Assembly (NCBI RefSeq): GCF_019393635.1
Contig: NC_057863.1
Span: forward strand, 641,078,306-641,142,305
DNA length: 64,000 nt
Source of the DNA: Dromiciops gliroides
Taxonomy: Eukaryota > Chordata > Mammalia > Microbiotheria > Microbiotheriidae
Direction: 5' to 3'
Shown here: one piece after another, positions 21,401 to 54,516 of the stretch
Layout: every line of letters begins with the position of its first letter
How positions within the stretch are numbered: position 1 is the first letter of the stretch
The notes under the pieces: model-generated
Seen by the model: only the letters and a program-made list of their open reading frames with translations
Databases searched by the model: none
Told to the model about the DNA's origin: nothing
Translations under genes and position numbers: made by a program

Positions 21401-21405
21401 CTCAC

Positions 21406-34268: not shown

Positions 34269-34960
34269 CTCTCACTTTCTTCTTAACCCCTTATCATGTC
34301 ATTTTCAATTTTTTCATCCCATTGACACTGCTCTCTCCAAGTTTGCCAGTGATCTCTAAATTGCCAAATCCAATGGCTTTTTCTCAATCTTCATTCTCCT
34401 TGACATCTCTGAAGCCTTTGACACTGTGGATCACTCTCTTCTTGAGATTCTCTTCTCTCTAGGTTTTTGAGACACCTCCCCTCCCTCCCTGTTTCCCTCC
34501 CTCTCCCCCCCCCACCCCCTCCCGTTCTCCTCCTCCCTCTCTGATCACTCCTTCTCTGTCTCCTTTGCTGGATTCTCCTCCAGATCATGCTCTCTGACCC
34601 TACCTATCCCTTGGGACTCTGTGCTGAGCCCTCTTCTCCTCTCCCTCTAAATTACTGCACTTGGTGATCTCATCAGCTCCCATGCATTTAATTACCATCT
34701 GTCTCTAGGCTGATGATGCTCAAATCTACTTTCTCTGCCTCAATGTCTCTGCTGACCTCCAATCTCACATCTCCAACTGCTTCACAGACATCTTGAACTA
34801 CAAGTCCAGGAGACATCTTAAACTCCATAGGTCCAGAACCATTATCTTTCCCTACAAATTCTCTCCACCTCCCACCCTATTACTGTGGAGGACACCACCC
34901 TCCTCCCCATCCCCCAAACTCACAACCCAGGAGGAGTGATCCTGGACACTCACTCTCGCT

Positions 34961-34969
<9 letters not shown>

Positions 34970-35026
<57 letters not shown>
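34970..35026. repeat. CT microsatellite in L2
   Basis: About 28 CT units in unit A; unit B has only six at the same place (about 47924). Confidence 0.95.
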
Positions 35027-35030
<4 letters not shown>

Positions 35031-35829
35031 CCCCACATCCATTTAAACTGCTGTCAAGTCCAGCAATTGTACCTCTGCAACATCTCTCAAATACACCCCT
35101 TTCTCCTCTGACATTGCCACACACCCCTTCTTACAGGCTCCCATTACTTCACACCTTGATTATGCAAGGGCCTGCTGGTGGGTCTGCCTGATCAAGTCTC
35201 TCCCCACTCGAAGCCATCCTCCATTCAGCTACCAAATGATTTCCCTAAAGCACAATCCAATGATATCACCCACCCAGCCCCCCTCAGTAAACTCCAGTGT
35301 TTCCCTATCTGCTCCAGGAGCAAATACAAAACCTTTTGCTTGACATTCAAAGCCCTTCATAACCTGCTCCCCTCCTACCTTCCCAGTCTTCTTACACCTT
35401 AACCCCTTCTACATACTCAGTGATCCAGTGACACTGGCCTCTTGGCCATTTCAGAAACAAGACATTCCATCTCTTGGCTCCAGGCATTCACTCTGATCCT
35501 CTCCCATGCCTGGATTTCTCTCCCTCCCTGCTTCTATTGACCTCCCTGGCTTCTTTTAAGTCCCAGCTAAAACCCCACTTTCCTCAATTGCTCTTCATTT
35601 CAGGGTCTTTCCCCTATTATCTCCTATTTATCCTGTCTAGAACTCGCTTTGTATATACTTGTTTCCATGTTGTCTCCCCCCGTAGATCGTAAACCCCTTG
35701 AGGACAGGAGCTGTCTTTTGCCTCTTTTTGTATCCCCAGCACTTAGCACAGTGCCTGGCACATTGTAAACACTTAATAAGTGGTTACCGATTGATTGATT
35801 TCACGTGAATTCTCTCCAGGCAATCTAGA

Positions 35830-36340
35830 TTCCAGTCCAAATGGTTTAACCTTCTTGCCCCTCCCTAAACTCCACTTCTATTGTTTCCCACAGCTGTAGT
35901 ACATGTTCTCCCCATTCTGCCCCTCAATCTCTACTGTCCCTGAAGTCCCTGCTCAGGTGCCACCTCCTTCAAGAAAGCCTTGCCCACTAAAAAAACAAAA
36001 ATAAGGGGGCATCTAGGTGGCACAGTGGATAGAGCACCGACCCTGGAGTCAGGAGTACCTGAGTTCAAATCCGGCCTCAGACACATAATACTTACTAGCT
36101 GTGTGACCCTGGGCAAGTCACTTAACCCCAATTGCCTCACTAAAAAAACAAAAAACAAAACAAAAAAAAAAGAAAGCCTTGCCTCATCTCCCTGCCTCTT
36201 AATGCTTTCTCCTTCCTCAGATTATTTAATATTGATTCATGTGTAACTGCTCTCTCTCCCAATGGAAGGCAAATGCTTGGAGACAGAAGGTAGATGAGAG
36301 CTCCACCTACCCACCCACCCCATGCCTTGCATATCACAGA
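35830..36340 (+). mobile_element. L2/CR1 3' fragment (unit A)
   Basis: ctcaggtgccacctccttca, ccctgcctcttaatgctttc and the following text are an L2-type 3' region. A SINE is inserted at 36005. The counterpart in unit B is 48131-48290. Confidence 0.65.
36005..36170 (+). mobile_element. young tRNA/CORE SINE with a leftover tail before it
   Basis: The right flank agaaagccttgcc matches 35971-35984. But cactaaaaaaacaaaaataa, itself like a SINE tail, lies between the left duplication and the head, as if a tandem pair had recombined. Confidence 0.88.
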
Positions 36341-36496
36341 ACCATAACAGCTTATTCAACTGAATACCATTGTTTGGGAGGGAGCTGTGGCCCCCTAAGT
36401 TTAGAAAGGGAAGATGAGCCCCCTACCTCCCTCCCCTTTTAGGGGAAAAAAGGAGGAAAAAAAAAGACTCTGGAGTATAAGAGACCGGTTTTCTCC

Positions 36497-36502
36497 TTTA
36501 TT
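36497..36502 (-). terminator. ISG15: poly(A) signal of ISG15 copy A
   Basis: AATAAA on the minus strand (plus TTTATT), about 240 nt past the stop codon. The 3' UTR between is nearly identical in the two copies. Confidence 0.75.
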
Positions 36503-36741
36503 GACATTCATTATAACTGTTGGATCCAGACTTTTCAGGCAGGGAGCATGCCAGGGAAAGGGTCGAGACCTAGGAGAGGAGTCAAGACCCAGGGGAGTAG
36601 AGAATGGCAGGTCAATAGGGGAGCATCAAACCAAATCTCAAGGCCCAGCCCTTCATTGATCCCAACCCAAGAGCTAGAGGAAAGTCAGATTAAAGAGTCA
36701 AGAGAATGACAAGGCCCCCTAACACACACACATTCTCTTCC

Positions 36742-38618
36742 CTATCCAGTGAGTCCAAGGCCCCCAGTGCCTGTAACTCCTCCAGGAAGCTTTAGGTTCA
36801 TCTGGATGGTACACAGTGGGCTGAGGGCATAGTCTCCCAAGTGGTCATTATCTTGCATGTTCTGCTCCTCAAAGCAGAGCCAGAACTGGTTCCCTCTGAT
36901 CAACTCCCTGTCCTGCACCATCTTCGTCAACTGGGCCACAGTCTGGCTCAGTTGGATGCGGTAGGAGCTGGTGTGGGTGCCATTCCGCACCAGGATGTCT
37001 AAGGACTGGTCTTGATCTACCAGCAGCAGTGTGTCCCCAGTATTCAACTTGTGTTCGGAGAGACATTTCCAGTTGAGCAATAGTTCCCCACCTTTTGTGG
37101 TCAGCCGCTGCCTATATGCAGGCACACTGAACTTCTTGGCAATCTCTTTCTTCAGGTCCAGGACAGTGGTGTTGTAGCCTGCCTTTACTGTGCCCTCCTT
37201 TGCAGGGAACACCCCAGTGGTCTTCACATTTAGATGCAGGCTCTGCAAGAGAAATCAGATAATGTCTGAGGCCCGAGCACTTCCAGCCCTGTGAGGAGGA
37301 ATACCCCACTTTTACAGAAAAAGAAACTGAACCTTGGAAAAGATAAACAGCTTAGGAGGAAGTCCAGTTCTATGGAAAGAATACTGGATTTACACTATTG
37401 ATTAGGGAAATGCAAATTAAAGCAACTCTGAGGTACCACCTCACACCTATCAGATTGGCTAATATGACAAAAAAAAGGAAAATAATAAATGTTGGAGAAG
37501 CTATGGAAAAATTGGAACACTAATGCATTGTTGGTGGAGTTGTGAACTGATCCAACCATTCTGGAGAGCAATTTAGAACTATGCCAAAGGACTATAAGAC
37601 TGTGTATACCCTTTGACCCAGCAATACCATTACTAGGTCTTGTATCCCAAAGAGAGCATAAAAAAGGGGGAAGGATCCACACGTACAAAAATATTTATAG
37701 CAGCTGTCTTTGTGGTGGCAAAGAATTGGAAATTGAGGGAATGGCCATCAATTGGGGAATGGCTGAACAAGTTGTGGTATATGAATGTAATGGAATACTA
37801 TTGTGCTTTAATAAATGATGAGCAGTAAGATTTCAGAAAAACCTGGAAAGAATTAAGTGGACTCATGTTGAGTGAAGTGAGCAGAACTAAGAGAACATTG
37901 TACACAGTAACAGCAACACTGAGTGATGATCAACTGTGATAGACTTAACTCTTCTCAGCAATACAATGATCCAAGACAGTTCCAAAGGACTCATGTTGTA
38001 AAATGTTCTCCACATCCAGAAAAAAAGAATCTGGATGCAAACTGAACCATACTATTTCTACTTTTATAATTTTTTTTCTTTTTTGAGGTTTTTCCCTTTT
38101 GTTCTGATTCTTTCACAACATGACTAATGCAGAAAAACAGGTTTAATGTGGTTGTACATATATAACGTATATCAGATTGCTTGCTGTCTTAGGGAGGGGG
38201 GAGGGAAGGGAAGGATGGAGAAAAATTTGGAACTCAAAATCTAAAAACAAATGTTGAAAACTATGGAACTGGGAAATAATAAAATACTTTTATGATTAAA
38301 AAAACAAAATGCTGAATTTGGAGTCAGATAGCATGAGTTTCAGTCCTGCCCTTGTCACTCACTCCTAGGGTAATCTCAAGTGATTTAGGCAGCTAGGTGG
38401 TGCAGGGAGTAGAGAGTCCAGAAGACCTGAGTCGCAATCCAGCCTCAGTGGCTTATTTAACTCTGTGATCTTGGGGCAGGGGGGGGGGGGGAGGGAAGTC
38501 TCAGCCTCAGTTTCTACATCTGTAACATGGGTTGGTGTGAGGATAAAATCAAATGACATTTGTAAAGTGTTTCATAAACCTCGATTCACCAGTTCAAGAT
38601 ATTATTGTTGTTGTTGTT

Positions 38619-38651
<33 letters not shown>

Positions 38652-38984
38652 GTTATTATTATTATTGAGCCCTTTAACCTCTCCAGGCTTCAGCCTCCTC
38701 CTCTGTGACATAGAGAGACTAGATGGTCCCTGGGGTCTCTCCCAGCCCCAACCCAAAACCCTGTGATCCCACTGTCACATGCCTGTGAAAGTAGAAATAG
38801 GAGCAGAGACTGAGGCTTCTCTTGAACTCACCCCTTCCTAATTAGTCTGCCTTCCCAATCTGGAGAATGAATCAGAGGAGCTTGAGATTTAAATCTCTCT
38901 GTCTGTCTGTCTGTCTCTCTATCTCTGTCTCTTTCCCTGTCTCTCAGTCTCTTCTGTGTCTCTTACTCTGTCTCTCTGTGTGTA

Positions 38985-39065
<81 letters not shown>

Positions 39066-39101
39066 GCCTCTCTGTCGCTGTCTGTCTCTCTCTTTCTCTG
39101 T

Positions 39102-39140
<39 letters not shown>

Positions 39141-41897
39141 ATACACCACCTGCCACAACTTGCCTTGTAGTTATCTGTCTCCTTTCCCTTCTATGAGATG
39201 GGAAGGGGGGTGGCTAGGTGGCACAGTGGATAAAGCACCAGCCCTGGATTCAGGAGGACCTGAGTTCAAATCCGGCCTCAGACACTTGACACTTACTAGC
39301 TGTGTGACCCTGGGCAAGTCACTTAACCCCATTGCCCCGCACAAAAAAAAAAAAAGAGAGAGATGGGAAGGAGCAGAGCTCCAGGGGACATGGCACATGA
39401 GGCTCTGCACAGAGGACCTCAGTGATAGCTACTCAAAAGTGCACTAGGTTTGGTGTGAGGAGCCCAGGGTTCGAATCCTGCTTCCAATCCTTACTCCCTC
39501 TGTGACTTTGCTCAAATCACATCAGGTCTCTACGTCCCCCTGTCCTCATCTCTAAAATAAAGGGGTTGGACTAGGTCTCCTCTAAAGTCTGGGAGAGCAT
39601 GCAATAGTTACCTGTGGAATTGTATCATATGGTATTGTACTGTGTTGGAGAGTATGCAATCCTAGCCTAGCCCAGCCCAGGCTATATAAGCCTAACCTAG
39701 CCTAACCTATTGTATCCTGCTTTAACTAGGAGAGACAGACAGAGAAACAGAGTCAGAGACAGAGAGAAAGGAAGGGAGAGAGGGAAGAGAAAAGAGAGGA
39801 AGAGACAGAGACAGGGAGTGAGACAGAAAGACAGGGAAGAAAGAAAGAAAACAGAAAGAGAGAAAGGAAGGGAGAGAGGGGAGAGAGAGAAAGAGAGAGG
39901 GAGGGAAGAGGGAGAGGGAAAGGAAGGGAGGGAGGGAGAGGGAGAGAAAGAGACAAGGAGAGAGAAAGCAAGAAAGAGAAGAGAGGGAGAGAGACAGAGA
40001 GAGAGGAAGAGAAAGAGAAGAGAGAAACAGAGACAGAGGGAGGGAGAGAGAAAGGGAGAAGGAGATAGGGAGAGAGAGGAAAGAGAGAGAGAAGAAAGGA
40101 AAAGAGAAACAGAGAAAAAAGAAAGATTTGGGAGAAAGAGAAGAGAGGGAGAAAGAGTGATAGGGAGGGCAGGAAGAAGGGAGAGGGAGAGACAGAGAGA
40201 GGAGAGAGGAACAGAAAATGAGGGAAGTGATCTCCAGAGCTGTCTATATACCTCTCAGGCAGCAGGTGTAATGGAAAATGCTGGCTTTGGAGTCAAAAGT
40301 CTTGAGTTCTAATCCCACCCTTACCACTTGATACCTTTGTGATCTTATAAAAGTAAGAATTCGTCTAGATCTGAGTTTTCTCTGCTGTTCTATAAAAGGG
40401 TTGAAGGAGACAACCTCTATAGTTCCGTCCAGATTTCAAGCTGGATGGGAGCTTCACCAGTCCTTTCTTGTGAATCATAGATGTAGATCTGGAAGCGATG
40501 CCTGAGGTCACTGAGTCTAACTCCAATTTCTAGATGAAGAAACTGAGGCTTGTGCCCAAGGTCCCTCAGACCATCAGGGTCCCCCTCCAGCATGTGGAAC
40601 TCTAGGTCAAACATTCGCATCTCCATTTTACAGGCAAGAAAGTCAAAACTCCAATTCAGAGAAACCTAGGAAGACTTGGGCAAAGTGATGCAGATGGAGA
40701 AAGTGGACTTCAGCAATGGAAAGGAGGGTGTGGAGGAAAGCACACTGGCCTCAGATGGATTGCAATGAACACTCTGGTCTCTGGAGGACAGGAGAGGAAT
40801 AAACAGCAGCCCTTGCTCCTCTTAGGAATGATAAAGGTCTGGCCTGAATAAGGTTTTCTTCTAGAGAAGCTAAACTAAGGGACTGCTCTACGGAAGAACT
40901 AAGGGAGATAAGCACATTAGGTGTGGCTGCTGCCTTAGGTGTGGCTGCTGCCTTATCTGTGGCTGAGGACAGAAATAACTACAGAAGTCAGGACCACCAT
41001 CCCCTCATTCAAGCTTTCCCCACCCCCAAAGGGAACTTTCTATAGTCAGGTGGTCACCCCATCCGGTCCCCCACCATCTGTCCTCTGTAAAAGCTTTGGC
41101 CTCCCTTCCGGTGGAAGAAAAAGGTGTCTCAGAGAAACACATCTCCAAGCCATTTTCTCCCCTTGAGGCAAAGTCTTTGACTTCCTTCTTGGTCACTTTC
41201 TCTAAGCACCCAAACAAAAGACCATTTTTTTTTCTGGTTTGTTTTTTTTGGCCGGGCAATGAGGGTCAAGTGACTTGCCCAGGGTCACACAGCTAGTAAT
41301 TGTTAAGTGTCTGAGGTCGGATTTGAACTTAGGTCCTCCTGGATCCAGGGCCGGTGCTCTATCCACTGCGCCACCTAGCTGCCCCCAGACCATTTTACTC
41401 TAATTGTATTGTGTGTGAGAGGTGTAATTATTTAAGGAGGAATACAGGGGCAGCTAGATGGCGCAATGGATAGAGCACCGGCCCTGGAGTTAGGAGTACC
41501 TGAGCTCAAATCCGGCCTCAGACACTTAACACTTACTAGCTGTGTGACCCTGGGCAAGTCACTTAACCCCAATTGCCTCACTAAAAAAAAAAAAAAAAAG
41601 GAGGAATACCATTACATACCACCACCTCTTTTCCTGTAACAGGATGGATATTGGGGCCAGGGAAGGAGGTGACAGACCTCTCAGACTCAGTTGCCCTTTT
41701 GGTCTATTTTGCCTCCCTGGTGTTCCCTGTTAGAAGACAGGGTTCCACTGTTGGGGTGGGGCGGGAAGGAACATATGAGGAAGGGAGTGTTATATAGAGA
41801 AGTAGGGAAACAACCAAAGGATAGAAACTTTTACAAGGGAGAAAAGGGAAACTGAGGCCTGAAGGGATGAAGTAACCTGGGGCTCCCACCTTACCAT
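36742..41897 (-). CDS. ISG15: ISG15 ubiquitin-like protein, copy A (LKLPGG C-terminus)
   Basis: ISG15 is an interferon-induced protein of two tandem ubiquitin-like domains. It is conjugated to lysines by UBA7/UBE2L6/HERC5, removed by USP18, and also acts free inside and outside cells. Exon 1 contributes only the ATG (41897-41895, GCAGCCATG then donor GTAAGG). Exon 2 is 37242-36742 after a TTGCAG acceptor. This gives 167 residues, MSLHLNVK..., aligned with human MGWDLTVK. Domain 1 is about residues 2-78, the hinge DQDQSLDILVRN follows, and domain 2 carries YRIQLSQTVAQL, FWLCFEE and LGDYALSPLCTIQMNL. The end reads LKLPGG (about 151-156) plus an 11-residue tail VTGTGGLGLTG, where the family has LRLRGG; both arginines are replaced. 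The frame is intact. The 4.65-kb intron contains a copy-specific L1 and three young SINEs. The gene is certain; conjugation competence is doubtful. Confidence 0.93.
37396..38305 (+). mobile_element. 5'-truncated L1 inside the ISG15 copy A intron
   Basis: Begins gggaaatgcaaattaaagc (ORF2 YHLTP region) and ends aataaaatacttttatgatt plus A-run. The site is empty in unit B, where actggattt runs straight into ggagtcagata. So it landed after the duplication, with diverged flanking repeats (actggattt / gctgaattt). It lies opposite to ISG15 transcription. Confidence 0.9.
38385..38600 (+). mobile_element. MIR-class SINE (unit A)
   Basis: ggcagctaggtggtgcaggg, cagtttctacatctgtaaca; pair of 49415-49640. 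Confidence 0.7.
38601..38667. repeat. TTG/TTA repeat (unit A)
   Basis: ttattgttgttgttgttatt and tatcattatcattattatta; shorter counterpart at 49645-49697. Confidence 0.9.
38893..39145. repeat. TCTG/CT/CA compound tract (unit A)
   Basis: A long (CT)n core of about 70 bp, then (CA)n; intron of ISG15 A. Confidence 0.96.
39207..39359 (+). mobile_element. young tRNA/CORE SINE in ISG15 copy A intron
   Basis: Flanked by gagatgggaagg (39195-39206, 39360-39371); not in unit B. Confidence 0.95.
39440..39600 (+). mobile_element. MIR-class SINE (unit A)
   Basis: gggttcgaatcctgcttcca and actttgctcaaatcacatca; pair of 50519-50690. Confidence 0.65.
39729..40215. repeat. GA-rich tract (unit A)
   Basis: Nearly 490 bp of purine-only DNA (AGAGA, GGGA, AAGAA mixtures); a 200-codon open frame across it is an artefact of composition. 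Confidence 0.95.
40262..40636. mobile_element. two MIR-class SINEs, opposite orientation (unit A)
   Basis: Sense piece with gtcttgagttctaatcccac; antisense piece with gatgaagaaactgaggcttg. From 40368 rightwards the copy is identical to unit B. Confidence 0.7.
41229..41386 (-). mobile_element. young tRNA/CORE SINE in ISG15 copy A intron
   Basis: Antisense, flanked by agaccatttt (41219, 41387). Confidence 0.95.
41446..41597 (+). mobile_element. young tRNA/CORE SINE in ISG15 copy A intron
   Basis: Flanked by aaggaggaatac (41434-41445, 41598-41609). Confidence 0.96.
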
Positions 41898-41989
41898 GGC
41901 TGCAATTCTTAGGCAAGGAAGGTCTTCTCACATTTGAACTCAGGCTTCTGGGGCTGCTTCCTCTTCCCGTGTCCTGTCACCACCTCTGT

Positions 41990-42135
41990 CACAGCCTCTG
42001 TCACAGCCTCTGACTGCCTAGTTTTATATCCCCGTACTGGCTTAGCTCCGCACAAGGGGGCGGAGTCAGAGACATACTCTGGAAACGAAACTCTACTTTC
42101 TGTGTAGAAAACGTCTTCGGTTTCAGTTTCTGTTC
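41990..42135 (-). promoter_or_regulatory. ISG15: interferon-responsive promoter of ISG15 copy A
   Basis: Read on the minus strand, a distal ISRE (GAAACTGAAACC, 42130-42119) matches GAAANNGAAAC fully. A proximal element (42092-42081, plus strand GGAAACGAAACT) has the IRF core AANNGAAA but one mismatch to the full ISRE. A GC box (GGGGGCGGAG on plus, 42056-42065) follows, then a TATA box (TATAAAAC, 42028-42021). Transcription should start about 25-30 nt downstream, near 41995, giving a 5' UTR of about 100 nt in exon 1. The ISRE pair plus TATA is the expected layout for ISG15; factor binding is inferred. Confidence 0.85.
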
Positions 42136-42414
42136 TGAGCTGTTCCCAGGCTGGAGGCAGAAACAAAACTCCTATGAGAGAATAGAAAGCGTAAAAGTGA
42201 CCCATGTTCTAGACTTCTCCTCCCCTCATTCATACACCCCCAACAAGGGACTGTAGGAAGGAGGAAGGCTTGGCTGAGGATAGCAAAGTGTGATTCCCCA
42301 CCCCCAGCCCAGGGCCCCAGAGAGGCTCGGGGATCATCCACCCCTAGGTGCAGAAACTCTGAGCTGACCTCTTCTTGTTTGCCCTCCTTGGCCACTCCTG
42401 TGGCATGGTAGAGA

Positions 42415-42680
42415 GAGGGCATTTGGACAAAGAGGAACTGGGTTCAAATGTTATCTCGCTTGCTCTTACTAACCATGTGACCTCAAGCACAATGTTCTAT
42501 TGGGGCTCGTCTAGAGGGGGTAAACTGAAGTGTCAAAAGCAGACCTGAGGTCACTGCCTCAGTTTCCTCCCCTGCAAAAGGAAGAAGTTGACTCCTGGAG
42601 TCCCTTACTGCTCTAAACCTATGATGAATTAATAAAGAAAGGCAGTTATTGACTGTATACCAAGCCCGGTACCATCCTAA
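42415..42680 (+). mobile_element. MIR-class SINE and old repeat upstream of ISG15 A
   Basis: actgggttcaaatgttatct, cagtttcctcccctgcaaaa; then agttattgactgtataccaa. Pair of 52320-52540. Confidence 0.65.
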
Positions 42681-42784
42681 CTTTGCAGTCTATTCCCCAT
42701 GTGACTTGAGATGGGTCATTTAAATGACAAAATTGAACTAGATGCCCTCTGAAGTGCCTTCCAACAGAACAAAAGGTCAAGAAT

Positions 42785-44412
42785 ATCACGGGATTAATGG
42801 GAAAAAATGCACTGGAAGGGGGCTAGCCATACCAAATTTAAAGCTATACTATAATGTAGCAGTCATCAAAACTATTTGGTACTGGCTAAGAAATGGAGTG
42901 GTGGATCAGTGGAATAGGTTAGGCACAGGAGACACAATAGTAAATAATTATAGTAATCTACTGTTTGATAAACCCAAAGACTCCAACTTCTGGGATAAGA
43001 ACTCACTATTTAACAAAAACTTCTGGGAAAACTGGAAAATAGTATGGCAGAATCCAGACATAGACCAACATCTTACACCATATAACAAAGTAAAGTCAAA
43101 ATGAGTATATGATCTAGACAAAAAGAGTTATACCATAGACAAAATTAGAAAAGGAAGCAATGGTTTACTTGTCAGATCTACAGAGAGGGAAAGAATTTAT
43201 GACCAAAGATGAGAGAGACAACATTATGAAATGCAGAGTGAATCATTTTGACTACATTAAATTTAAAAGGTTTTGCACAAACAAAACCAATGCAAACAGG
43301 ATTAGAAGGAAAGCAGAAAGCTAGGACACAATTTTTACAGCCAGTCTTTCTGATAAAAGTCTCATTTCTAAAATATATAGAGAAATGAATCAATATATAA
43401 GAATACAAGTCATTCCCCAATGGAGAAATGGTCAAAGAATATGAATGGGCAGTTTTCAGATGAAGAAGTTAAAGTTATATACAGCCATATGAAAAAATGT
43501 TCTAAATTTCTACTGACTAGAGAAATGCAAATTAAAACTACTCTGAGATACCACCTCACACCTATCCAATTCGCTAGTATGACAAAAAAGAAAAATGATG
43601 AATGTTGGAGAAGATGTGGGAAAATTGGAACACTAATGCACTGTTGGTGGAGTTGTGAACTGATCCAACCCATTCTGGAGAGCAATTTGGAACTATGCCC
43701 AAAGGGCTAAGGGGCTGTGCATACTTTTTGACCCAGTAATACTATTACTGGGTCTGTATCCCAAAGAGAACATAAAAATGGGAAAAGGACCCACATATAC
43801 AAAAATATTTATAGCTGCTCTTTTTGTGGTAGAAAATAATTGGAAATTGAGGGAATGGCTAAACAAGTTGCGGTATAGGAATGTAATGGAATACTATTGT
43901 ACTATAAGAAATAATGAGCAGGAGGATTTCAGAGAAACCTGGAATGACTTACATGAACTGATGCTGAGTGAGAAGAACAGAAACAGGAGAACATTGCACA
44001 CAGAAATAGCAACATTGTGTGATAATCCGCTGTGATAGACTTGGCTCTTCTCAGCAGTGCAATGACCCAAAACAATTTCAAAGAACTCATGATAGAAAAT
44101 ATTCTCCACATCCAGAAAGAACTGTGGATTCTGAATGCAGATTGAACCATACTGTTTCTACTTCTTGGCTGTTTTTTTCTCTTTTATAAGGTTTTTCCCT
44201 TGTGTTCTGCTTCTTCTTTCACAATATGACTAATGCAGAACTATGTTTAATGTGATTGGACATATAACCTATATCAGATTGCTTTCCATCCTGGGGGAGA
44301 GGGAAGGGAAGGGAGGGTGGGAGAAAAATCTGGAACCAAAAATCCTATGAAAACAAATGTTGAAAATTATCTTTACATGTAACTGGAAAATAATAAAATA
44401 CTTTATGATTAA
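42785..44412 (+). mobile_element. L1 LINE, ORF2 C-terminus and 3' UTR
   Basis: 5'-truncated L1. The ORF2 end is readable in pieces (FWENWKIVWQNPDIDQHLTP; EKWSKNMNGQFSDEE; IGTLMHCWWSCELIQPILE; FIAALFVVENNWK), with several stops and frameshifts. It ends aataaaatactttatgatt plus A-run. The 5' part is shared with unit B. Confidence 0.9.
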
Positions 44413-45084
44413 AAAAAGAAATGATAAGCAGATGGATTTCAGAAAAACTTGGAAAGACTTACATGAATTGATGCTTTGTGAAATGAGCAGAACCAAGAGA
44501 ACATTGTACACAATATCAACAACATTGTATGATGATCAGCTGTGATAGGAGCAGCTAGATGGTGCAGTGGATAAAGCACTGGCCCTGGATTCAGGAGGAC
44601 CTGAATTCAAATCTGGCCTCAGATACACTTACTAGCTGTGTGACCCTGGGCAAGTCACTTAACCCTCATTGCCCTGAAAAAAAAGGGGGGGTGGAATATG
44701 ATGATCAGCTGTGATAGACTTAGCTCTTCTCAGTAACACGATGATCCAAGATAATGCCAAAAGACTCATGGTGGAAAATGCTCTCCACATTCAGAAAAAG
44801 AACTATGGAGTCTGAATACAGATTGAAGCATACTATTTTCACTTTTGTTGTTGCTTTTTTGTTGTTGTTGTTTATTCTTTCTTGAGTATTTTTTCCCCTT
44901 TTGTTCTGATTCTTCTGTTACAACATGACTGATATGGAAATATGTTTAACATGATTCTAATGTATAACCTATATCAGATTGCTTGCTGGCTTCAAGAAGG
45001 GTAAGGGAAGGGAGGGTGGGAGAAAAATTTGGAACTCAAAAAAATATCTTTGCATGTAGTTGGAAAAAATTTTAGTAAAATAAA
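44413..45084 (+). mobile_element. second L1 3' end, directly abutting
   Basis: Repeats the last ORF2 codons and 3' UTR (tggaaagacttacatgaat, ctctccacattcagaaaaag, agaaaaatttggaactcaaa), so two L1 tails lie in tandem. A SINE is inserted at 44549-44696. Confidence 0.85.
44549..44696 (+). mobile_element. young tRNA/CORE SINE in L1
   Basis: Flanked by a 21-bp duplication containing gatgatcagctgtgatag (44528-44548, 44697-44717). Confidence 0.95.
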
Positions 45085-45173
45085 ATTAGATAAATGAATG
45101 GATAAATAAATAAATGGATGAGCAGATAAATAAATGAGTGAGTGAATTTATATATATATATATATATATATAG
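45085..45173. repeat. AAAT/GAAT repeat and TA microsatellite
   Basis: gataaataaataaatggatg, then about 11 TA units. Confidence 0.92.
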
Positions 45174-45176
45174 GTG

Positions 45177-45303
45177 GGGACAGCTAGGTGGCGCAGTGGA
45201 TAGAGCTCCAGCCCTGGATTCAGGAGGACCCGAGTTCAAATCCGACCTCAGACACTTACTAGCTGTGTGACTCTGGGCAAGTCACTTAACCCTCATTGCC
45301 CCC
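45177..45303 (+). mobile_element. tRNA/CORE SINE
   Basis: Follows a TA repeat and runs into a C/CA tract instead of poly(A). Confidence 0.9.
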
Positions 45304-45493
45304 CCCCACACACACACACACAAAGTTTCTGTTATCTTATCCCTTTATGCCAGTGGAAGCCATTAGGGTAGTTTGGCCAATGATCACACTCCTGGCAATT
45401 CAAGACATTCCAGCAAGGAGTTGGGCCTCCAAGAGGATGTGGTCAGGTAGTACACAAAGACAAGGGGGCAGAGAGATAAAGAATCCAGCAGAT

Positions 45494-45636
45494 GGGGCAG
45501 CTAAGTGTTGCAGTGGATAAAGCACCGGCCCTAGATTCAGGAGTGCCTGAGTTCAAATCTGGCCTCAGACACTTAACACTTACTAACTGTGTGACCCTGG
45601 GCAAGTCACTTAACCCCATTGCCCCGTTAAAAAAAA
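45494..45636 (+). mobile_element. young tRNA/CORE SINE in unit B
   Basis: Flanked by gaatccagcagat (45481-45493, 45637-45649); the matching site in unit A is empty. Confidence 0.95.
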
Positions 45637-45854
45637 GAATCCAGCAGATAGTTCTGAGGTAGGACTTGGGGGGAGGGAGGGGCGGCGTAGACAGATCTCT
45701 CCTTATATCCTGAGAGAGAAATGATGGATCTTATTGCTTGTTAATTATGAATTTTTTTTATCTTCCTACTATTTCTCCTTCCTTTTTTTGAAGACAAACT
45801 CAGTTAAGGACAAAGGACAAACAACATCAAGAAGAAGTCATAACCCATAAATGT

Positions 45855-47966
45855 ATCATCTGCATGCTCAAGTACTCTGATATCCCCTTATCTGACCAGA
45901 ATCTACTGACTTTTCACCTCTCCCTTCTGCCTTCCCTTTCAAAACCCAACTCTTCATCCTCGCTGGAACTGTCCATTTCTAGACCCCTCAGTTCTCTCCC
46001 AGGCCATCTCCCCTGCACTAACCACTCTCTCCTCTTCTCTTCATCTTGACCCCTTGGTCAACTAATCCAATTCTACATTGTCCTCCTCTCTTGGATCTCT
46101 AGTCTCCTTATATCACTGTTTATACCCAGCCAAGCCTCAGTTTTACTTAACTCCCACCATTTATTGCCTCTGCTCCTACACATAAACTGCTGAATGAAGA
46201 TGGAGAAAATCACACAACTGTTCTGACTGGCTCCACTACAAATTTATGTTACAGAAAAAAATATATATATATGTTACAGGATCTCAAATGGGTCCTTACT
46301 GCTGCCAGGCAATTCTACTATACCTCCTTATCAGCTCACTGTCTGTCTCCACACTTTCTCATCCTTCCTCAAACCTCCCATGGCTCCTCCTGTCCCCACT
46401 CCCTCAGCTGAGAATCTTCCCCCATATTTGACAGAAAACTGTGAGACCATTCACCATGATCCCTCTTCTCCCCTCTCCCCCATCCCCCATCACTCAGATG
46501 CCTTCTACCATTCTCTCCTCCTTCACTCGTCTCACCTGATGAAGTACCCTCGCTCCTTATCAAGGCTCTAAGTATTCAAGTGATCCCCTTCCATCTCCTC
46601 TCCTCCAACAGACTGCCCTCTCTGTCATCCCCATCTTTCACTTATTCTCAATCTCTCCCTCTCCCCTGGCTCATTCCCTACTGCAGGCAAACATGCCCAT
46701 GTCTCCCCCATCCTGAAAACAACTCACTTGATCCTTCCAGCCTTTCTAACTATCATCTGATTTCTCTTCTGCATTTCCCAACTAAACTTTTTTAAAAACA
46801 ATAAACATTTTTATTTATAGTTTTGAGTTCCAAATTGTATCACTCCTTCCCTCCCTTCCCTATCCCCTCCCTGAGGTGGTAAACAATCAAATAGAAGTAA
46901 TAAATGTGCAATTATGTAAAATATTATTGCCATATTAGTCATTTTGTACAAGAAAACTTGCATAAAAGGAAGTGAAAAAATAGCATGTTTCAGTCTGTGT
47001 TGTCAATATCAGTTCTTTCTCTGTAGGTGGATAGTATGTTTCATCAATAGTTCTTTGGGATTGTCTTGGTTCATTGTATTGCTGATAATAGTTAAGTCAT
47101 TTCCAGTTCTTCGCCAAACAACATTGCTGTCTCTGTGCACAAAGTTCTCTTGGTTCTGCTCACTTCACTATACATCAGTTCATACAAGTTCAAGTTAAAC
47201 TTCTTGAAAAGGGCAACCACAATAGTTGCCTCACTCCCTCTCCTCTCACTTTCTTCTTAACCCCTTATCATGTCATTTTCAATTTTTTTCATCCCACTGA
47301 CACTGCTCTCTCTAAGTTTGCCAGTGATCTCTAAGTTGCCTAATCCAATGGCTTTTTCTCAATCTTCATTCTCCTTGACATCTCTGAAGCCTTTGACACT
47401 GTGGATCACTCTCTTCTCCTTGAGATTCTCTTCTCTCTAGGTTTTTGAGACACCTCCCCTCCCTCCCTGCTTTTCTCCCTCTCTTCCCCACCCCATTCTC
47501 CTCCTCCCTCTCTGACCACTCCTTCTCTGTCTCCTTTGCTGGATTCTCCTCCAGATCATGTTCTCTGACCCTACCTGTCCCTTGGGACTCTGTTCTGAGC
47601 CCTCTTCTCCTCTCCCTCTAAATTACTGCACTTGGTGATCTCATCAGCTCCCATGCATTTAATTACCATCTGTCTCTAGGCTGATGATGCTCAAATCTAC
47701 TTTCTCTGCCTCAATGTCTCTGCTGACCTCCAATCTCACATCTCCAACTGCTTCACAGACATCTTGAACTACAAGTCCAGGAGACATCTTAAACTCCATA
47801 GGTCCAGAACCATTATCTTTCCCTACAAATTCTCTCCACCTCCCACCCTATTACTGTGGAGGACACCACCCTCCTCCCCATCCCCCAAACTCACAACCCA
47901 GGAGGAGTAATACTGGACACACTCTCTCTCTCTCTCATCCCCTACATCCATTTAAACTGCTGTCAA
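45855..47966 (+). mobile_element. L2/CR1-clade LINE in unit B
   Basis: The reverse-transcriptase entry motif LDPSSLSNYHLISLLHFPTK precedes an L1 insertion (46796-47195). The frame then goes on to the SEAFDTVDHSLL region and ends at 47966, where a SINE replaces the L2 3' end. Many stops; an old element. Confidence 0.8.
46796..47195 (-). mobile_element. L1 3' end inserted in the unit B L2 LINE
   Basis: Complement of the L1 3' UTR (tttgagttccaaattgtat, gttctgctcacttcactata). It interrupts L2 reverse-transcriptase sequence between cccaactaaac and aagttaaacttcttg. Confidence 0.85.
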
Positions 47967-48130
47967 GGGGGCGGCTAGGTGGCTCAGTGGATAAAGCACT
48001 GGCACTGGATTCAAGAGGACCTGAGTTCAAATCCAGCGTCAGACACTTGACACTTACTAGCTGTGTGACCCTGGGCAAGTCACTTAACCCCAATTGCCTC
48101 ACTAAAAAAACAAAAAACAAAACAAAAAAA
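47967..48130 (+). mobile_element. tRNA/CORE SINE at a deletion junction in unit B
   Basis: The head follows L2 sequence matching 35056, but the tail and right flank match the unit A SINE at 36005-36170, so it spans a 0.95-kb deletion. Confidence 0.92.
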
Positions 48131-48456
48131 AGAAAGCCTTGCCTCATCTCCCTGCCTCTTAATGCTTTCTCCTTCCTCAGATTATTTAATATTGATTCAT
48201 GTGTAACTGCTCTATCTCCCAATGGAAGGCAAATAAATGCCTGAAGACAAAAGGTAGATGAGAGCTACACCTACTCACCCACCCCATGCCTTGCATATCA
48301 CAGAACCATAACAGCTTATTCAACTGAATACCATTATTTGGGAGGGACCCGGGACCCCCTAAGCTTAGAAAGGGAAGATGAGCCCCCTATCTCCCTCCCC
48401 TTTTAGGGAAAAAAGGAGGAAAAAAAAGACTCTGGAGTATGAGACAGGTTTTCTCC

Positions 48457-48462
48457 TTTATT
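48457..48462 (-). terminator. ISG15: poly(A) signal of ISG15 copy B
   Basis: AATAAA on the minus strand (plus TTTATT), about 240 nt past the stop codon, at the same relative place as in copy A. Confidence 0.75.
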
Positions 48463-48701
48463 GACATTCATTATAACTGTTGGATCCAGACATTTCAGGC
48501 AGGGAGCATGCCAGGGAAAGGGTCGAGACCTAGGAGAGGAGTCAAGACCCAGGGGAGTAGAGAATGGCAGGTCAATAGGGAAGCATCAAACCAAATCTCA
48601 AGGCCCAGCCCTTCATTGATCCCAGCCCAAGAGCTAGAGGAAAGTCAGATTAAAGAGTCAAGAGAATGACAAGGCCCCCTAACACACACACATTCTCTTC
48701 C

Positions 48702-51700
48702 CTATCCAGTGGATCCAAGGCCCCCAGTGCCTGTAACTCCTCCACGAAGCCTTAGGTTTATCTGGATGGTACACAGTGGGCTGAGGGCATAGTCTCCCAA
48801 GTGGTCATTATCTCGCATGTTCTGCCCCTCAAAACAGAGCCAGAACTGGTCCCTTCTGATCGACTCCCTGCCCTGCACTATCTTCTTCAATTGGGCCACA
48901 GTCTGGCTCAGTTGGATGCGGTAGGAGCTGCTGTGGGTGTCATTCCGCACCAGGATGTCTAAGGACTGGTTGTGATCCACCACCATCAGCAATACATCCC
49001 CATTCTTCACCCTGTGCTGGGAGAGGGCTTTCCAGTTGAGCAATAGCTCCCCACCCTCTGTGGCCAGCCGCTGCTCATATGCAGGTACACTGAGCTTATT
49101 GGCAATCTCTTTCTTCAGGTCCAGGACAGTGGTGTTGTAGCCTGCCTTTACTGTGCACGCCATCCCAGTGAGCATCTTAACCTTCAGATGCAGGCTCTGC
49201 AAGAGAAATCAGGTAATATCTGAGGCTCAAGCACTTCCAGCCCTGTGAGGAGGGGTACCCCACCTTTACAGAGAAAGAAACTGAAGCTTGGAAAAGATAA
49301 AGCATTTAGGAGCTAGTCCAGTTCTATGGAAAGAATACTGGATTTGGAGTCAGATAATGTGAGTTTCAGTCCTGCCCTTGTCACTCACTACCAGGGTAAT
49401 CTCAAGTGATTTAGGTAGCTGGGTGGTCCAGTGAGTAGAGAGTCCAGAAGACCTGAGTTGCAATCTAGGTTCAGTGGCTTATTTAACTCTGTGATCCTGG
49501 GTGAGAGGGAGGGAAGTCTCAGCCTCAATTTCCACATCTGTAAGAAGGGGGTCATAATAGTACATACCTGCCAGGGTTGGTGTGAGGATAAAATGAAATG
49601 ACATTTGGAAAGTGTTTTATTAACCTTGATTCACCAATGCAAGCTATTATTGTTGCTTATTATTGTTGTTGTTATTGTTTATTATTATTATTATTGAGCC
49701 CCTTAACCTCTCCAGGTTTCAGCCTCCTCCTCTGTGACATAGAGAGACTAGATGGTCCCTGGGGTCTCTCCCAGCCCCAACCCAAAACCCTGTGATCCCA
49801 CTATCACATGCCTGTGAAAGTAGAAATAGGAGCAGAGACTGAAGCTTCTCTTGAACTCACCTCTTCCTAATCAGTCTGTCTTCCCAATCTGGATAATGAA
49901 TCAGAGGAGCTTGAGATTTAAATCTCTCTCTCTGTCTCTGTCTCTCTGTCTCTCTATCTCTGTCTCTTTCCCTGTATCTCTGTCTCTTCTCTGTCTCTCC
50001 GACTCTGTCTCTCTGTCTGTGAGTCTCTCTCTCCATGCCTGTTTCCCTGTCTCCCTCTGTCTCTCTCTCCCTCCCTCTCTGTCTCTGTCTGTCTCTCTGT
50101 CTCTGTCTCCCTATCTCAGCAGAGCTCCAAGGGACTTGGCACATGGGGCTCTGCACAGTGGACCTCAGTCATAGCTACTCAAAAGTGCACTAGGGGGGCA
50201 GCTAGGTGGCGCAGTGGATAAAGCACCGGCCCTGGAGTCAGGAGTACCTGAGTTCAAATCCGGCCTCAGACACTTAACACTAGCTGTGTGACCCTGGGCA
50301 AGTCACTTAACCCCAATTGCCTCACTAAAAAAAAAAAAAAAAAAAAAAAAGTCTAAAAGAAAAAAAGTGCACTAGGGGGGCAGCTAGGTGGCGCAGTGGA
50401 TAAAGCACCGGCTCTGGATTCAGGAGTACCTGAGTTCAAATTTGGCCTCAGACACTTACTAGCTGTGTGACCCTGGGCAAGTCACTTAATCCCCAATGCC
50501 CTGCAAAAAAAAAAAAAGTGCACTAGGTTTGGTGTGAGGGGCCCAGGGTTCAAGTCCTGCTTCCAATTCTTACTACCTATGTGACTTTGCTCAAATCACA
50601 TCAGGTCTCTATGTCCCCCTGTCCTCATCTCCAAAATAAAGGGGTTGAACTAGGTCCCCTCTAAAGTCTGGGAGAGCATGCAGTAGTAACCTGTGGTATT
50701 GTATCATATGATATTGTACTGTATTGGAGCCCAGGCTGGCTAAGCCTAACCTATCCTAACCTTTTTTATCCTGCTTTATCTAAGAGACACATACAGACAG
50801 AAAAACAGAGAGGCAGAGGCAGAGAGTAAGATAGAGTGGTGAGAGCGAGAGTGAGAGCGAGAGCGAGAGAGAAAGGGGAAAAGAGAGAAGAAAGAGAAGA
50901 GAGGGAGTGAGTGGGAAGGAGGGAGGGAGGGAAGGAGGGAGACAGAGAGAGGAGAGAGGAACAGAAAATGAGGGGAGTGATCTCCAGAACTGTCTATATA
51001 CCTCTCAGGCAGCAAGTGTAATGGAAAATGCTGGCTTTGGAGTCAAAAGTCTTGAGTTCTAATCCTACTGTTACCACTTGCTACCTTTATGACCTTAAAA
51101 CAGTAAGAACATGTCTGGATCTGAGTTTTCTCTGCTGTTCTATAAAAGGGTTGAAGGAGACAACCTCTATAGTTCCGTCCAGATTTCAAGCTGGATGGGA
51201 GCTTCACCAGTCCTTTCTTGTGAATCATAGATGTAGATCTGGAAGCGATGCCTGAGGTCACTGAGTCTAACTCCAATTTCTAGATGAAGAAACTGAGGCT
51301 TGTGCCCAAGGTCCCTCAGACCATCAGGGTCCCCCTCCAGCATGTGGAACTCTAGGTCAAACATTCGCATCTCCATTTTACAGGCAAGAAAGTCAAAACT
51401 CCAATTCAGAGAAACCTAGGAAGACTTGGGCAAAGTGATGCAGATGGAGAAAGTGGACTTCAGCAATGGAAAGGAGGGTGTGGAGGAAAGCACACTGGCC
51501 TCAGATGGATTGCAATGAACACTCTGGTCTCTGGAGGACAGGAGAGGAATAAACAGCAGCCCTCGCTCCTCTTGGGAGGGAGATTGGGGCCAGAGAAGGA
51601 GGTGACAGACCTCTCAGACTCAGTTGCCCTTTTGGTCTATTTTGCCTCCCTGGTGTTCCCTGTTAGAAGGCAGGGTTCCACTGTTGGGGTGGGTCAGGGA

Positions 51701-51830
51701 GGAGCATATGAGGAAGGGAGTGTTATATAGAGAAGTAGGGAAACAACCAAAGGATTGAAACTTTTAAAAGGGAGAAAAGGGAAACTGAGGCCTGAAGGGA
51801 TGAAGTAACCTGGGGCTCCCACCTTACCAT
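48702..51830 (-). CDS. ISG15: ISG15 ubiquitin-like protein, copy B (canonical LRLRGG)
   Basis: This is the second tandem copy. Exon 1 gives the ATG (51830-51828, donor GTAAGG). Exon 2 is 49196-48702 after TTGCAG. The product is 165 residues, the same length as human ISG15: MSLHLKVKMLTG at the start, first ubiquitin-like fold to about residue 78, hinge DHNQSLDILVRN, second fold with YRIQLSQTVAQLKKIV, FWLCFEGQNM and CTIQINLRLRGG. The diglycine motif is at about residues 149-154 and is followed by an 11-residue extension VTGTGGLGSTG, which must be removed to expose the reactive glycine, as in other ISG15 precursors. The intron is 2.63 kb, shorter than in copy A because it lacks the L1 and a 0.8-kb segment; it has two young SINEs of its own. 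It appears to be the copy that keeps the ancestral conjugation function. Confidence 0.95.
49415..49640 (+). mobile_element. MIR-class SINE (unit B)
   Basis: Counterpart of 38385-38600, about 9% different by eye. Confidence 0.7.
49645..49697. repeat. TTG/TTA repeat (unit B)
   Basis: Counterpart of 38601-38667. Confidence 0.88.
49923..50118. repeat. TCTC/TCTG tract (unit B)
   Basis: Counterpart of 38893-39145 without the long pure (CT)n and (CA)n. Confidence 0.94.
50194..50363 (+). mobile_element. young tRNA/CORE SINE, first of a tandem pair
   Basis: In ISG15 copy B intron. Flanked by aaaagtgcactag at 50181-50193 and 50364-50376. Confidence 0.96.
50377..50513 (+). mobile_element. young tRNA/CORE SINE, second of a tandem pair
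   Basis: Same target word again at 50514-50526; unit A has one uninterrupted copy of the word near 39440. Confidence 0.96.
50519..50690 (+). mobile_element. MIR-class SINE (unit B)
   Basis: Counterpart of 39440-39600, interrupted at its left edge by the tandem SINE pair. Confidence 0.65.
50787..50955. repeat. GA-rich tract (unit B)
   Basis: Counterpart of 39729-40215, about one third as long. Confidence 0.93.
51012..51386. mobile_element. two MIR-class SINEs, opposite orientation (unit B)
   Basis: Counterpart of 40262-40636; identical to it from 51118 onward. Confidence 0.7.
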
Positions 51831-51921
51831 GGCTGCAGGTCTTGGGCAAGGAAGGTCTTCTCAGGTTCGAGCTCAGGCTTCTGAGGATGCTTCTCTCTCC
51901 CTTCTCGGTCACCTTCTTGGT

Positions 51922-52066
51922 CACCGCCTCTGTCACAGCCTCTGACTGCCTAGTTTTATATCCCTGCACTGGTTTAGCTCAGCCCAGGGGGGTGGAGTCA
52001 GAGACTGCACTATGGAAATAGAAACTCTACTTTCTGGTTAGAAAACACCTTCAGTTTCAATTTCCC
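51922..52066 (-). promoter_or_regulatory. ISG15: interferon-responsive promoter of ISG15 copy B
   Basis: The layout is the same as copy A. The distal ISRE (52064-52053, GAAATTGAAACT) and the proximal ISRE (plus GAAATAGAAACT, 52015-52026) both fit GAAANNGAAACT. TATAAAAC lies at 51960-51953. The GC box seen in copy A is changed here (GGGGGTGGAG), so the Sp1-type site is probably lost. The two copies may therefore differ in basal level and in strength of interferon induction. Confidence 0.85.
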
Positions 52067-52319
52067 TTCTGAGCTGTTCCCAGGCTGGAAGCAGAAACAA
52101 AACTCCTATGAGACAATAGAAAGCATAAAAGTTACCCGTGTACTAGACTTCTCCTCCCCCAACACACCCCCAACAAGGGACTTCCAGTGGGGCTGCTGGG
52201 AAGAGGGAGGCTTGGCTGGGGATAGCAAGATGTGATTCCCTACCCCCAGCCCAGGGCCCCAGAGAGGGTCAAGGATCATCCACCCCTAAGCTGACTCCTT
52301 GGCCACTCCTGTGGAATGG

Positions 52320-52540
52320 TGGAGTGAGGGCATTTAGAGAAAGAGGAACTGGGTTCAAATGTTATCTTTCTCGTTCGTACTAACCAGGCAAGAGGTCACT
52401 GCCTCAGTTTCCTCCCCTGTAAAAGGAAGAAGTTGACTCCTAGAGTCCCTTCCTGTTCTAAACCTATTATGAATGAATAAAGAAAAAAAAGGAAGTTATT
52501 AAGCACTAACTGTATACCAAGCCCTGTGCCATCCTAACTT
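52320..52540 (+). mobile_element. MIR-class SINE and old repeat upstream of ISG15 B
   Basis: Counterpart of 42415-42680, with part of the middle lost. Confidence 0.65.
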
Positions 52541-52652
52541 TGCAGTCTATTCCCCATGTGACTTGGGATGGGGTCACTTAAATGAGGAAATTGCACTGGA
52601 TGTCCTCTGAAGTACCTTCCAACATAATAAAAGGTCAAGAATATCCAGGGAC

Positions 52653-52808
52653 GGGGAAGCTAGGTGGCACAGTGGATAGGGCACCAGCCCTGGATTCAGA
52701 AGGACCTGAGTTCAAATCTGGACTCAGACACTTGACACTTACTAGCTAGCTGTGTCACCCTGGGCAAGTCACTTAACTCCAATTGCCATACCAAATAATA
52801 ATAATAAT
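52653..52808 (+). mobile_element. tRNA/CORE SINE in unit B
   Basis: The tail is an AAT repeat. The flanks atatccaggga / atatctaagga are a diverged duplication; unit A is empty here. Confidence 0.9.
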
Positions 52809-52910
52809 CATATCTAAGGATTAATGAAAAAATGCACTGGAAGGTGGGCTAGCCACATCAAATCTAAAGCTATACTATAAAGCAGCAGTCATCAAAACTA
52901 TTTGGTACTG

Positions 52911-53061
52911 GTGGATAGAGCACCAGCCCTGGAGTCAGGAGTACCTGAGTTCAAATCTGGCCTCAGACACTTAACACTTACTAGCTGTGTGACCCTGGGC
53001 AAGTCACAACCCCAATTGCCTCACTAAAAAACAAAACAACAAAACAAAACAAAACAAAAAC
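52911..53061 (+). mobile_element. 5'-truncated tRNA/CORE SINE
   Basis: Starts at ggtggatagagcac, missing about 20 bp of head, with perfect ctatttggtactg duplications (52898-52910, 53062-53074). Confidence 0.94.
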
Positions 53062-53122
53062 CTATTTGGTACTGGCTAAGACATGGAGTGGTGGATCAGT
53101 GGAATAGATTAGGTACAGGAGA

Positions 53123-53286
53123 GGGGCAGCTAGGTGGCACAGTGGATAGAGCACCGGCCCTGGAGTCAGGAGTACCTGAGTTCAAATCCGGCCTCAGACA
53201 CTTAACACTTACTAGCTGTGTGACCCTGGGCAAGTCACTTAACCCCAATTGCCTCACTAAAAAAAAAAAAAAAATTAAAAAAAAAA
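53123..53286 (+). mobile_element. young tRNA/CORE SINE
   Basis: Flanked by agattaggtacaggaga (53106-53122, 53287-53303). Confidence 0.96.
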
Positions 53287-53398
53287 AGATTAGGTACAGG
53301 AGACACAGTAGTCAATGACTAAGTAATCTACTATTTGATAAACCCAAAGACTCCAGCTTCTAGGATAAGAACTCACTACTTGATAAAAACTTTGGTGG

Positions 53399-53553
53399 GG
53401 GGCAGCTAGATGGTACAGTGGATAGAGCACTGGCCCTGGATTCAGGAGGACCAGAGTTCAAATCCGGCCTCAGACACTTGACACTTACTAGCTGTGTGAC
53501 CCTGGGCAAGTCACTTAACCCCCATTGCCCTACAAAACAACAACAACAACAAC
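53399..53553 (+). mobile_element. young tRNA/CORE SINE at the half-L1 boundary
   Basis: Flanked by aactttggtgg (53388-53398, 53554-53564); the target word spans the start of the half-L1. Confidence 0.95.
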
Positions 53554-53751
53554 AACTTTGGTGGAACCAAGATGACCTAGGGAAGCCAGGAAGTTGCCTG
53601 AGCTCTCCCAAGTTTCCCTCAAAAATAACATTAAATCAAGTCTCTGAACAGATTCTGAAACTACAGAACCTACAAAAAGACAGTCACAATCTTCCAACCT
53701 GAGATAATTTAGAAGACTTCATTAAAGGTCAGTCTCACTTGGACAAAAGGG

Positions 53752-54233
53752 GAGCACAGCACAGCTCAGCACAGCACAGCACAGCTCAGCACAGCTCAGC
53801 TCAGCTCAGCACAGCACAGCACAGCTCAGCACAGCACAGCTCAGCACAGCACAGCTCAGCACAGCTCAGCTCAGCACAGCACAGCTCAGCACAGCACAGC
53901 TCAGCACAGCTCAGCTCAGCACAGCACAGTGCAGCACAGCACAGCTCAGCACAGCTCAGCTCAGCACAGCTCAGCTCAGCTCAGCTCAGCACAGCACAGC
54001 ACAGCTCAGCACAGCACAGTGCAGCACAGCACAGCTCAGCTCAGCACAGTGCAGCACAGCACAGTGCAGCACAGCTCAGCACAGCACAGCTCAGCACAGC
54101 TCAGCTCAGCACAGCTCAGCTCAGCACAGCACAGTGCAGCACAGCTCAGCTCAGCACAGCACAGTGCAGCACAGCACAGCTCAGCACAGCACAACTCAGC
54201 ACAGCACAGCTCAGCACAGCACAGTGCAGCACA
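53752..54233. repeat. 5-bp satellite of CAGCA/CAGCT/CAGTG pentamers
   Basis: About 96 pentamers in a row, mostly CAGCA and CAGCT with some CAGTG, mixed without an obvious higher-order period. Read on the minus strand they are GAGCT and GTGCT. It sits in the 5' part of an L1-type element, flanked by L1 5' sequence on both sides. Confidence 0.95.
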
Positions 54234-54516
54234 GAGAGGGTCTGGGCAAGTCAGCAGGAAGCTCTTGGCCACAGCACAGCAACTGAAGCCCCTTGGTCCT
54301 GGCTCAGCAGGCTGGTGGTGCATCGGGCCAGACGTGAGACCCGCCAGCACTGGCTGAGAGGGCAAACTGCCAGCTAGAGAACCACCCACAGGACAGGCAT
54401 GACTAGGCTAAGCCATCCCAGTGCAGGGAGTAGGTTTAGGGCTGTGAGGCCCCTATCCCCCAGCACAAGAAGCTTGTAACAGTGGCCCCTGTGCTCCAGG
54501 AGCAGACCTCAACTTT

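Follow-up and report, generated by a model that had tools for sequence, protein, structure and literature searches.

Tandem ISG15 genes in the marsupial Dromiciops gliroides, one with proline in place of the arginine before its C-terminal diglycine

ISG15 acts both as a protein tag and as a free protein. In a 64,000-nucleotide stretch of the genome of the marsupial Dromiciops gliroides (NCBI RefSeq assembly GCF_019393635.1, contig NC_057863.1, forward-strand positions 641,078,306 to 641,142,305; hereafter the window, with positions counted from its first letter), the minus strand carries two complete ISG15 genes, arranged head to tail between AGRN and a HES4-like gene. The product of one of them, copy B, has the conjugation tail LRLRGG, while that of the other, copy A, reads LKLPGG and so keeps both leucines and the two glycines. 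We tentatively favor the view, giving it slightly less than an even chance, that copy A is a conjugation-impaired ISG15 paralogue which would act mainly as a free protein.

Both genes can be followed on the minus strand from promoter to polyadenylation signal, the latter read in the sequence as TTTATT on the plus strand:

36742..37242, minus strand: copy A exon 2 (codons 2–167 and stop; tail LKLPGG), an open reading frame with 77% identity to copy B in the genome search
41895..41897, minus strand: start codon of copy A, the last three bases of exon 1, with the GT donor next to it at 41893–41894
42022..42028, minus strand: copy A TATAAAA
42121..42130, minus strand: copy A promoter, core of the interferon-stimulated response element (ISRE), GAAACTGAAA
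36497..36502, minus strand: copy A poly(A) signal AATAAA
48702..49196, minus strand: copy B exon 2 (codons 2–165 and stop; tail LRLRGG), an open reading frame also found in the genome search
51828..51830, minus strand: start codon of copy B, the last three bases of exon 1, with the GT donor next to it at 51826–51827
51954..51960, minus strand: copy B TATAAAA
52055..52064, minus strand: copy B promoter, ISRE core GAAATTGAAA
48457..48462, minus strand: copy B poly(A) signal AATAAA

The ATG is the sole coding part of exon 1 in each copy, the splice sites are GT-AG, and both the donor (ATG followed by GTAAGG) and the acceptor (CTTGCAG) are common to the two genes. Human ISG15 has the same layout, with the ATG closing the first of its two exons and a promoter that holds an ISRE and a TATA box. 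The ISRE core GAAANNGAAA (minus strand) stands at the identical aligned position in both promoters (42121 and 52055), exon 2 is open in both copies, and AATAAA lies about 240 bases beyond each stop codon. Protein-database entries for both copies begin with MSLHL, which requires that the exon 1 ATG be spliced to exon 2. The copy A product has 167 residues and ends with NLKLPGG followed by VTGTGGLGLTG; that of copy B has 165 and ends with NLRLRGG followed by VTGTGGLGSTG. A preliminary description of this DNA had credited both copies with an intact frame, splice sites, TATA box, ISRE and poly(A) signal, and the two different tails with an 11-residue extension each; we located all of the gene signals in the sequence, and the tails and extensions are seen in the translations.

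Pfam matched ubiquitin to two stretches of each product, A and B alike, and AlphaFold predicted two ubiquitin-like domains with low-confidence tails in both (copy A: predicted local distance difference test [pLDDT] 85.0, predicted template modeling score [pTM] 0.69; copy B: 87.6 and 0.74). A structure search, run with the copy A model only, returned ISG15 for all of the first 22 matches. The first hairpin of copy A is longer by three residues, and one residue is missing ahead of its hinge. Tyr96 and Gln102, which we take to be important for LFA-1 signaling—our literature search found no paper on the point—are kept in both copies. The features that mark a gene as ISG15 (tandem ubiquitin-like domains, locus, exon layout, ISRE and TATA box, C-terminal GG with extension) are present in A and B; the arginine before the GG (human Arg155) is present in B and is a proline in A. 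Judged by these features, copy A is by descent an ISG15 gene, but one without this feature of a conjugating ISG15.

We compared the tail motif across 129 ISG15 protein clusters, 127 of which do not come from this window; these are clusters rather than independent genes (P0066 and P0102 are apparently one Myotis brandtii gene), and from the last protein search the best 120 of 162 proteins entered the comparison. At the position of human Arg153, arginine occurs in 113 of the 127, and the remaining 14 have Y, H, K, Q, L or G, among them the tammar (K, LKLRGG) and the bilby (Q, LQLRGG). At the Arg155 position, arginine occurs in 127 of 127 and proline solely in copy A, a one-base difference (CCT in A, CGT in B). 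The two tail arginines are therefore not equally telling: within this set, the R153K change of copy A is ordinary variation, whereas R155P (human numbering) is a true outlier. Two earlier statements need to be narrowed accordingly. That copy A had lost the LRLRGG motif stands for the unique proline and falls for the ordinary lysine; that the tail arginines matter for recognition by the activating enzyme (E1) agrees with a published role of Arg155 (PMC10409785), but the arginines are unequal, and natural variation in 14 of 127 at the Arg153 position rules out that both are equally telling.

Two further tail variants came to light in the same clusters. In P0032, LRLRGP replaces LRLRGG, perhaps through an error in the frame or in splicing. 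At the equivalent of ubiquitin Arg72, Tyr or His is found in several bats as well as in other mammals (LYLRGG, LHLRGG; Artibeus P0112, Glossophaga P0120, Pteronotus P0123, Molossus P0081 and others), and UBA7, the E1 of ISG15, may thus lean on a different arginine than UBA1 does.

What the loss of Arg155 would mean can be gauged from the partners of the tail. In the human UBA7 complex, ISG15 Arg155 is reported to contact Phe542 and to hydrogen-bond with Glu592, mutation of Glu592 significantly lowers thioester transfer, and Leu154 and the GG give further contacts (PMC10409785); in a fish study, mutation of LRLRGG residues abolished ISGylation (PMC9680060). An E1-domain search of the host assembly yielded four loci, and at the one on contig C1 the best three matches to the exon with the catalytic cysteine were UBA7 chains. 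In this host UBA7 exon a Glu aligns, within a gapped stretch, with position 592 of UBA7 chain 8se9_A.

In the explanation that we favor, tandem duplication left this marsupial with copy B, whose conjugation tail is normal, and with copy A, a second ISG15 that would be expressed and induced by interferon. The copy A tail would be poorly used by UBA7 because Arg155, invariant in the compared set, is here a proline. The product of copy A would start as a precursor, might or might not be trimmed after the GG, and would stay mainly unconjugated, either holding USP18 through its C-terminal domain or serving as a secreted signal. For USP18, Trp123 is described as needed for stabilization in human cells (PMC11811815), and its equivalent is retained in copy A. 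The same study reports that ISG15 with an altered GG still stabilized USP18 and that interferon signaling was not restrained, so a tail change can separate effects. Arg153 has been linked with USP18 Tyr363 (PMC12410001, PMC12221285); this position is the Lys of copy A. Across all 129 proteins, the Trp123 position is something other than W in 13: Y in 10, S in 2, and N in the bilby (Macrotis lagotis, P0010), a set that includes porcupine, chinchilla, naked mole-rat, degu and guinea pig.

Over 164 aligned codons the two copies show 13 synonymous and 41 nonsynonymous differences, corresponding to 0.117 nonsynonymous (dN) and 0.125 synonymous (dS) changes per site and a ratio of 0.94 (bootstrap 0.51–2.01). 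Of the columns that differ, 41 in all, copy A carries the derived state in 19 and copy B in 15, and seven could be assigned to neither; faster evolution of copy A alone is not supported by these counts, and the relative-rate chi-square did not exceed 2.88 over 12 outgroups. Rapid change has affected both copies and not copy A only. Ten other marsupials agree with one another at 55 columns; copy A departs from them at eight of these and copy B at five, three being shared, and the same count made by leave-one-out for the other marsupials gave 0–6. Neutral simulation kept the frame open in about 2% of runs at 0.055 substitutions per site per copy. The two coding indels, of 9 and 3 bases, are both multiples of three, compared with 3 of 24 in the noncoding blocks, and the open frame and in-phase indels would together weigh against simple decay of copy A.

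Several of these observations, and some from the literature, weigh against a conjugation-impaired copy A that works mainly as free protein. The proline was read in one genome and could be recent or rare, and the alignment around Glu592 contains gaps. In ubiquitin it is Arg72, the equivalent of Arg153, and not Arg74 that is given as the primary E1 determinant (PMC9378703), so UBA7 may tolerate the proline. The USP18 study altered the GG, not Arg155, and reports mouse Isg15 to be dispensable for Usp18 stability (PMC11811815); a role through USP18 need not, then, hold in marsupials. A dN about equal to dS is compatible with relaxed constraint as well. Since copy A has not clearly evolved faster than B, nothing marks it as the copy with a changed job, and simulated frame survival rises to 12% at 0.03 substitutions per site.

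The first alternative is that copy A is a redundant copy beginning to decay, maybe still transcribed, in which the loss of Arg155 was disabling and unselected. The dN/dS ratio with its bootstrap interval would suit this, as would a proline where all 127 others have arginine, the larger number of departures at invariant marsupial columns (eight of 55 in A, five in B), and the three codons gained in the first hairpin with one lost before the hinge. Against it stand the intact gene signals of copy A, the low survival of a neutral frame in the simulation at the higher rate, the retention of GG and of the Trp that contacts USP18, and the fact that normal-tailed copy B has changed almost as much. 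On balance we regard decay as unlikely, though worth serious consideration.

Another possibility is that host UBA7 tolerates the proline, copy A being conjugated about normally, and that A and B differ in the surfaces which bind substrates or virus proteins. The E1 interface loses just a single side chain, LXLXGG is retained and most A/B differences lie outside the tail; moreover, FAT10, whose tail is very different, is still E1-activated (PMC9378703). However, a residue that is arginine in every other protein compared speaks against this, as does the importance of human UBA7 Glu592 for transfer (PMC10409785), with which the host Glu aligns, and we consider normal conjugation rather improbable.

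In the second ubiquitin-like domain, A and B differ by 15 nonsynonymous and two synonymous changes, where about 6.2 nonsynonymous ones are expected from the adjacent neutral rate (Poisson p 0.002; Fisher p 0.013; site numbers approximate); the comparison was picked after inspection of the data, and the excess disappears if the higher noncoding rate applies (18.5 expected). No such nonsynonymous excess was found in the first domain (Fisher p 0.28). The pattern hints at possible diversifying selection on the second domain. Such an excess, as in a host–virus conflict, would suit a third alternative, in which copy A is conjugated but its conjugates resist USP18 and viral deISGylating proteases with an Arg155 pocket, making them a more lasting mark or a decoy; a viral papain-like protease is described as having a defined pocket for Lys/Arg before the GG, including ISG15 Arg155 (PMC9086436). 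We hold this to be improbable, given that the precursor carries an 11-residue extension, so that resistance would also hinder maturation of copy A itself, and that the selection test was post hoc and sensitive to the noncoding rate.

Should copy A indeed be conjugation-impaired, a mammal might have evolved a dedicated, interferon-induced, non-conjugating ISG15 through a duplication and the loss of the arginine that contacts the E1, with the free and the conjugated jobs split between two genes; this wider proposition is possible but doubtful. The roles of ISG15 are usually separated with engineered mutants, and a natural A/B pair in one genome would make a split of roles testable in a living species. 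The tails even provide a built-in read-out. In the copy A tail, trypsin would cleave behind Lys152 (numbered as in copy A) but not just ahead of the GG, and a GG remnant is known for ubiquitin, ISG15 and NEDD8 (PMC8952880); because of the tail sequence and this known remnant, conjugates of A are predicted to leave LPGG on target lysines and those of B to leave GG.

The genes lie in two duplicated units, of which the least extents are as follows:

34268..43467, no strand assigned: unit with copy A, closed on its high side by an element (about 42791–43467) that is common to both units
47242..57019, no strand assigned: unit with copy B, interrupted by further interspersed repeats

The tandem duplication spanned at least 9 kb. 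In the copy A intron, an insertion of about 0.9 kb (37392–38307) is not found in copy B; we read both this insertion and the shared high-end element as L1-like. A six-frame search of the 3.30-Gb host assembly with copy B as query (E ≤ 0.001) matched 15 places, two of them copies A and B. The other 13 are far weaker, with identities of at most 36% and a best E of 2.9e-13; nine of these fall within two open frames, long ones with 535 and 961 residues, and look as polyubiquitin genes would. An assembly artefact, which the preliminary description had named as a possible flaw, and uncollapsed alleles are both ruled out by 2.6–12.1% noncoding divergence, the private 0.9-kb insertion, and a window that contains no N and sits within a chromosome-size contig of 670 Mb. 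A processed retrocopy is ruled out as well, intron and promoter being retained in both copies.

A maximum-likelihood tree built from 20 proteins, all of them ISG15, joins A and B as sisters (99/99) within its marsupial part, with end branches of 0.15 (A) and 0.11 (B). Protein searches gave a single ISG15 in each of ten other marsupials (the clusters were made at 90% identity, and second copies unannotated in those species would escape), so the duplication would belong to the Dromiciops lineage among the species compared, in which other marsupial orders are not represented.

Divergence between the units is patchy. Mismatches in ten noncoding blocks range from 2.6 to 12.1% and are heterogeneous (chi-square 78, 9 degrees of freedom): low (2.6–4.1%) where the intron starts (its 5′ end), in a block midway along it, and in the 3′ untranslated region with its flank; intermediate (6.7–8.3%) in three blocks; and high (10.0–12.1%) in the promoter region and in the intron adjoining exon 2, which itself differs by 10.8%. 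This suggests interlocus gene conversion from which the promoter and the greater part of the coding exon would have been exempt, and we therefore give no age for the duplication; a single age for the whole of it is not supported by such heterogeneous blocks.

Mammalian ISG15, a single gene in each of ten other marsupials as far as the protein searches go, resembles the present pair in its two ubiquitin-like domains, exon 1 start codon, ISRE and TATA box, AGRN and HES4-like neighbors, and LXLXGG; an extension after the GG occurs in many of these proteins, not all. The difference is that here there are two diverged copies, one with proline at the Arg155 position. Fish provide parallels in copy number. 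Asian seabass has two close ISG15 genes, LcISG15A and LcISG15B, with two exons each and products that are 73.8% identical, one with a 10-residue extension; in contrast to the present pair, both are reported to keep LRLRGG, the two products are the same throughout the first domain and diverge in the second, and exon 2 alone codes (PMC9680060). Atlantic salmon has linked ISG15 genes, two on chromosome 20 and four on chromosome 24, with one per region virus-responsive, but these are homeologous fish regions, and the text of that paper makes no mention of LRLRGG or LRGG (PMC12234341). FAT10 with its E1, UBA6, is alike as a tandem ubiquitin-like modifier whose tail departs from LRLRGG, but is another modifier with another E1, and its tail, CYCIGG, ends at the GG (PMC9378703). 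The tandem ubiquitin-like domains of chicken OASL (7sbi) form an ISG15-like pair (PMC8764230), but are part of the OASL protein, whereas copy A is a separate ISG15 gene.

Our search of the open-access literature on marsupial ISG15, on ISG15 paralogues, duplicates or pseudogenes, and on LRLRGG evolution gave, among the matches listed, no mammalian ISG15 paralogue—in agreement with the earlier remark that marsupial ones seemed undescribed—and no natural loss of Arg155. Linked ISG15 duplicates are thus known in fish; what is new, as far as the literature searched goes, is a mammalian pair with one Arg155-less tail.

In mammals, ISG15 usually lies between HES4 and AGRN and is read in the direction of AGRN. 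In the window, AGRN shares the strand of the ISG15 genes and begins downstream of copy A:

25689–25916 and 21395–21685, minus strand: first exons of AGRN (NtA domain), the downstream neighbor, matched by tblastn using the N-terminus of human AGRN (E 2.4e-12 and 1.7e-51)

These NtA matches bear out AGRN as the neighbor that had been proposed. About 48 kb past copy B, on the opposite strand, lies the HES4-like match (L036:6531–7150). The gene order here is the usual mammalian one, with ISG15 doubled.

An Rfam scan of window positions 25000–64000 at the gathering threshold gave zero matches. Upstream of copy B, at about 53700–54200, lies a long array of short tandem repeats with a period that is a multiple of 5 bases. 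The remaining three E1 loci of the host we read as UBA6 and two UBA1-like loci. Near both ends of the 85-Mb contig C7, at about 85.03 and 1.30 Mb (L031 and L032), are near-identical E1 catalytic exons, UBA1-like by the same reading.

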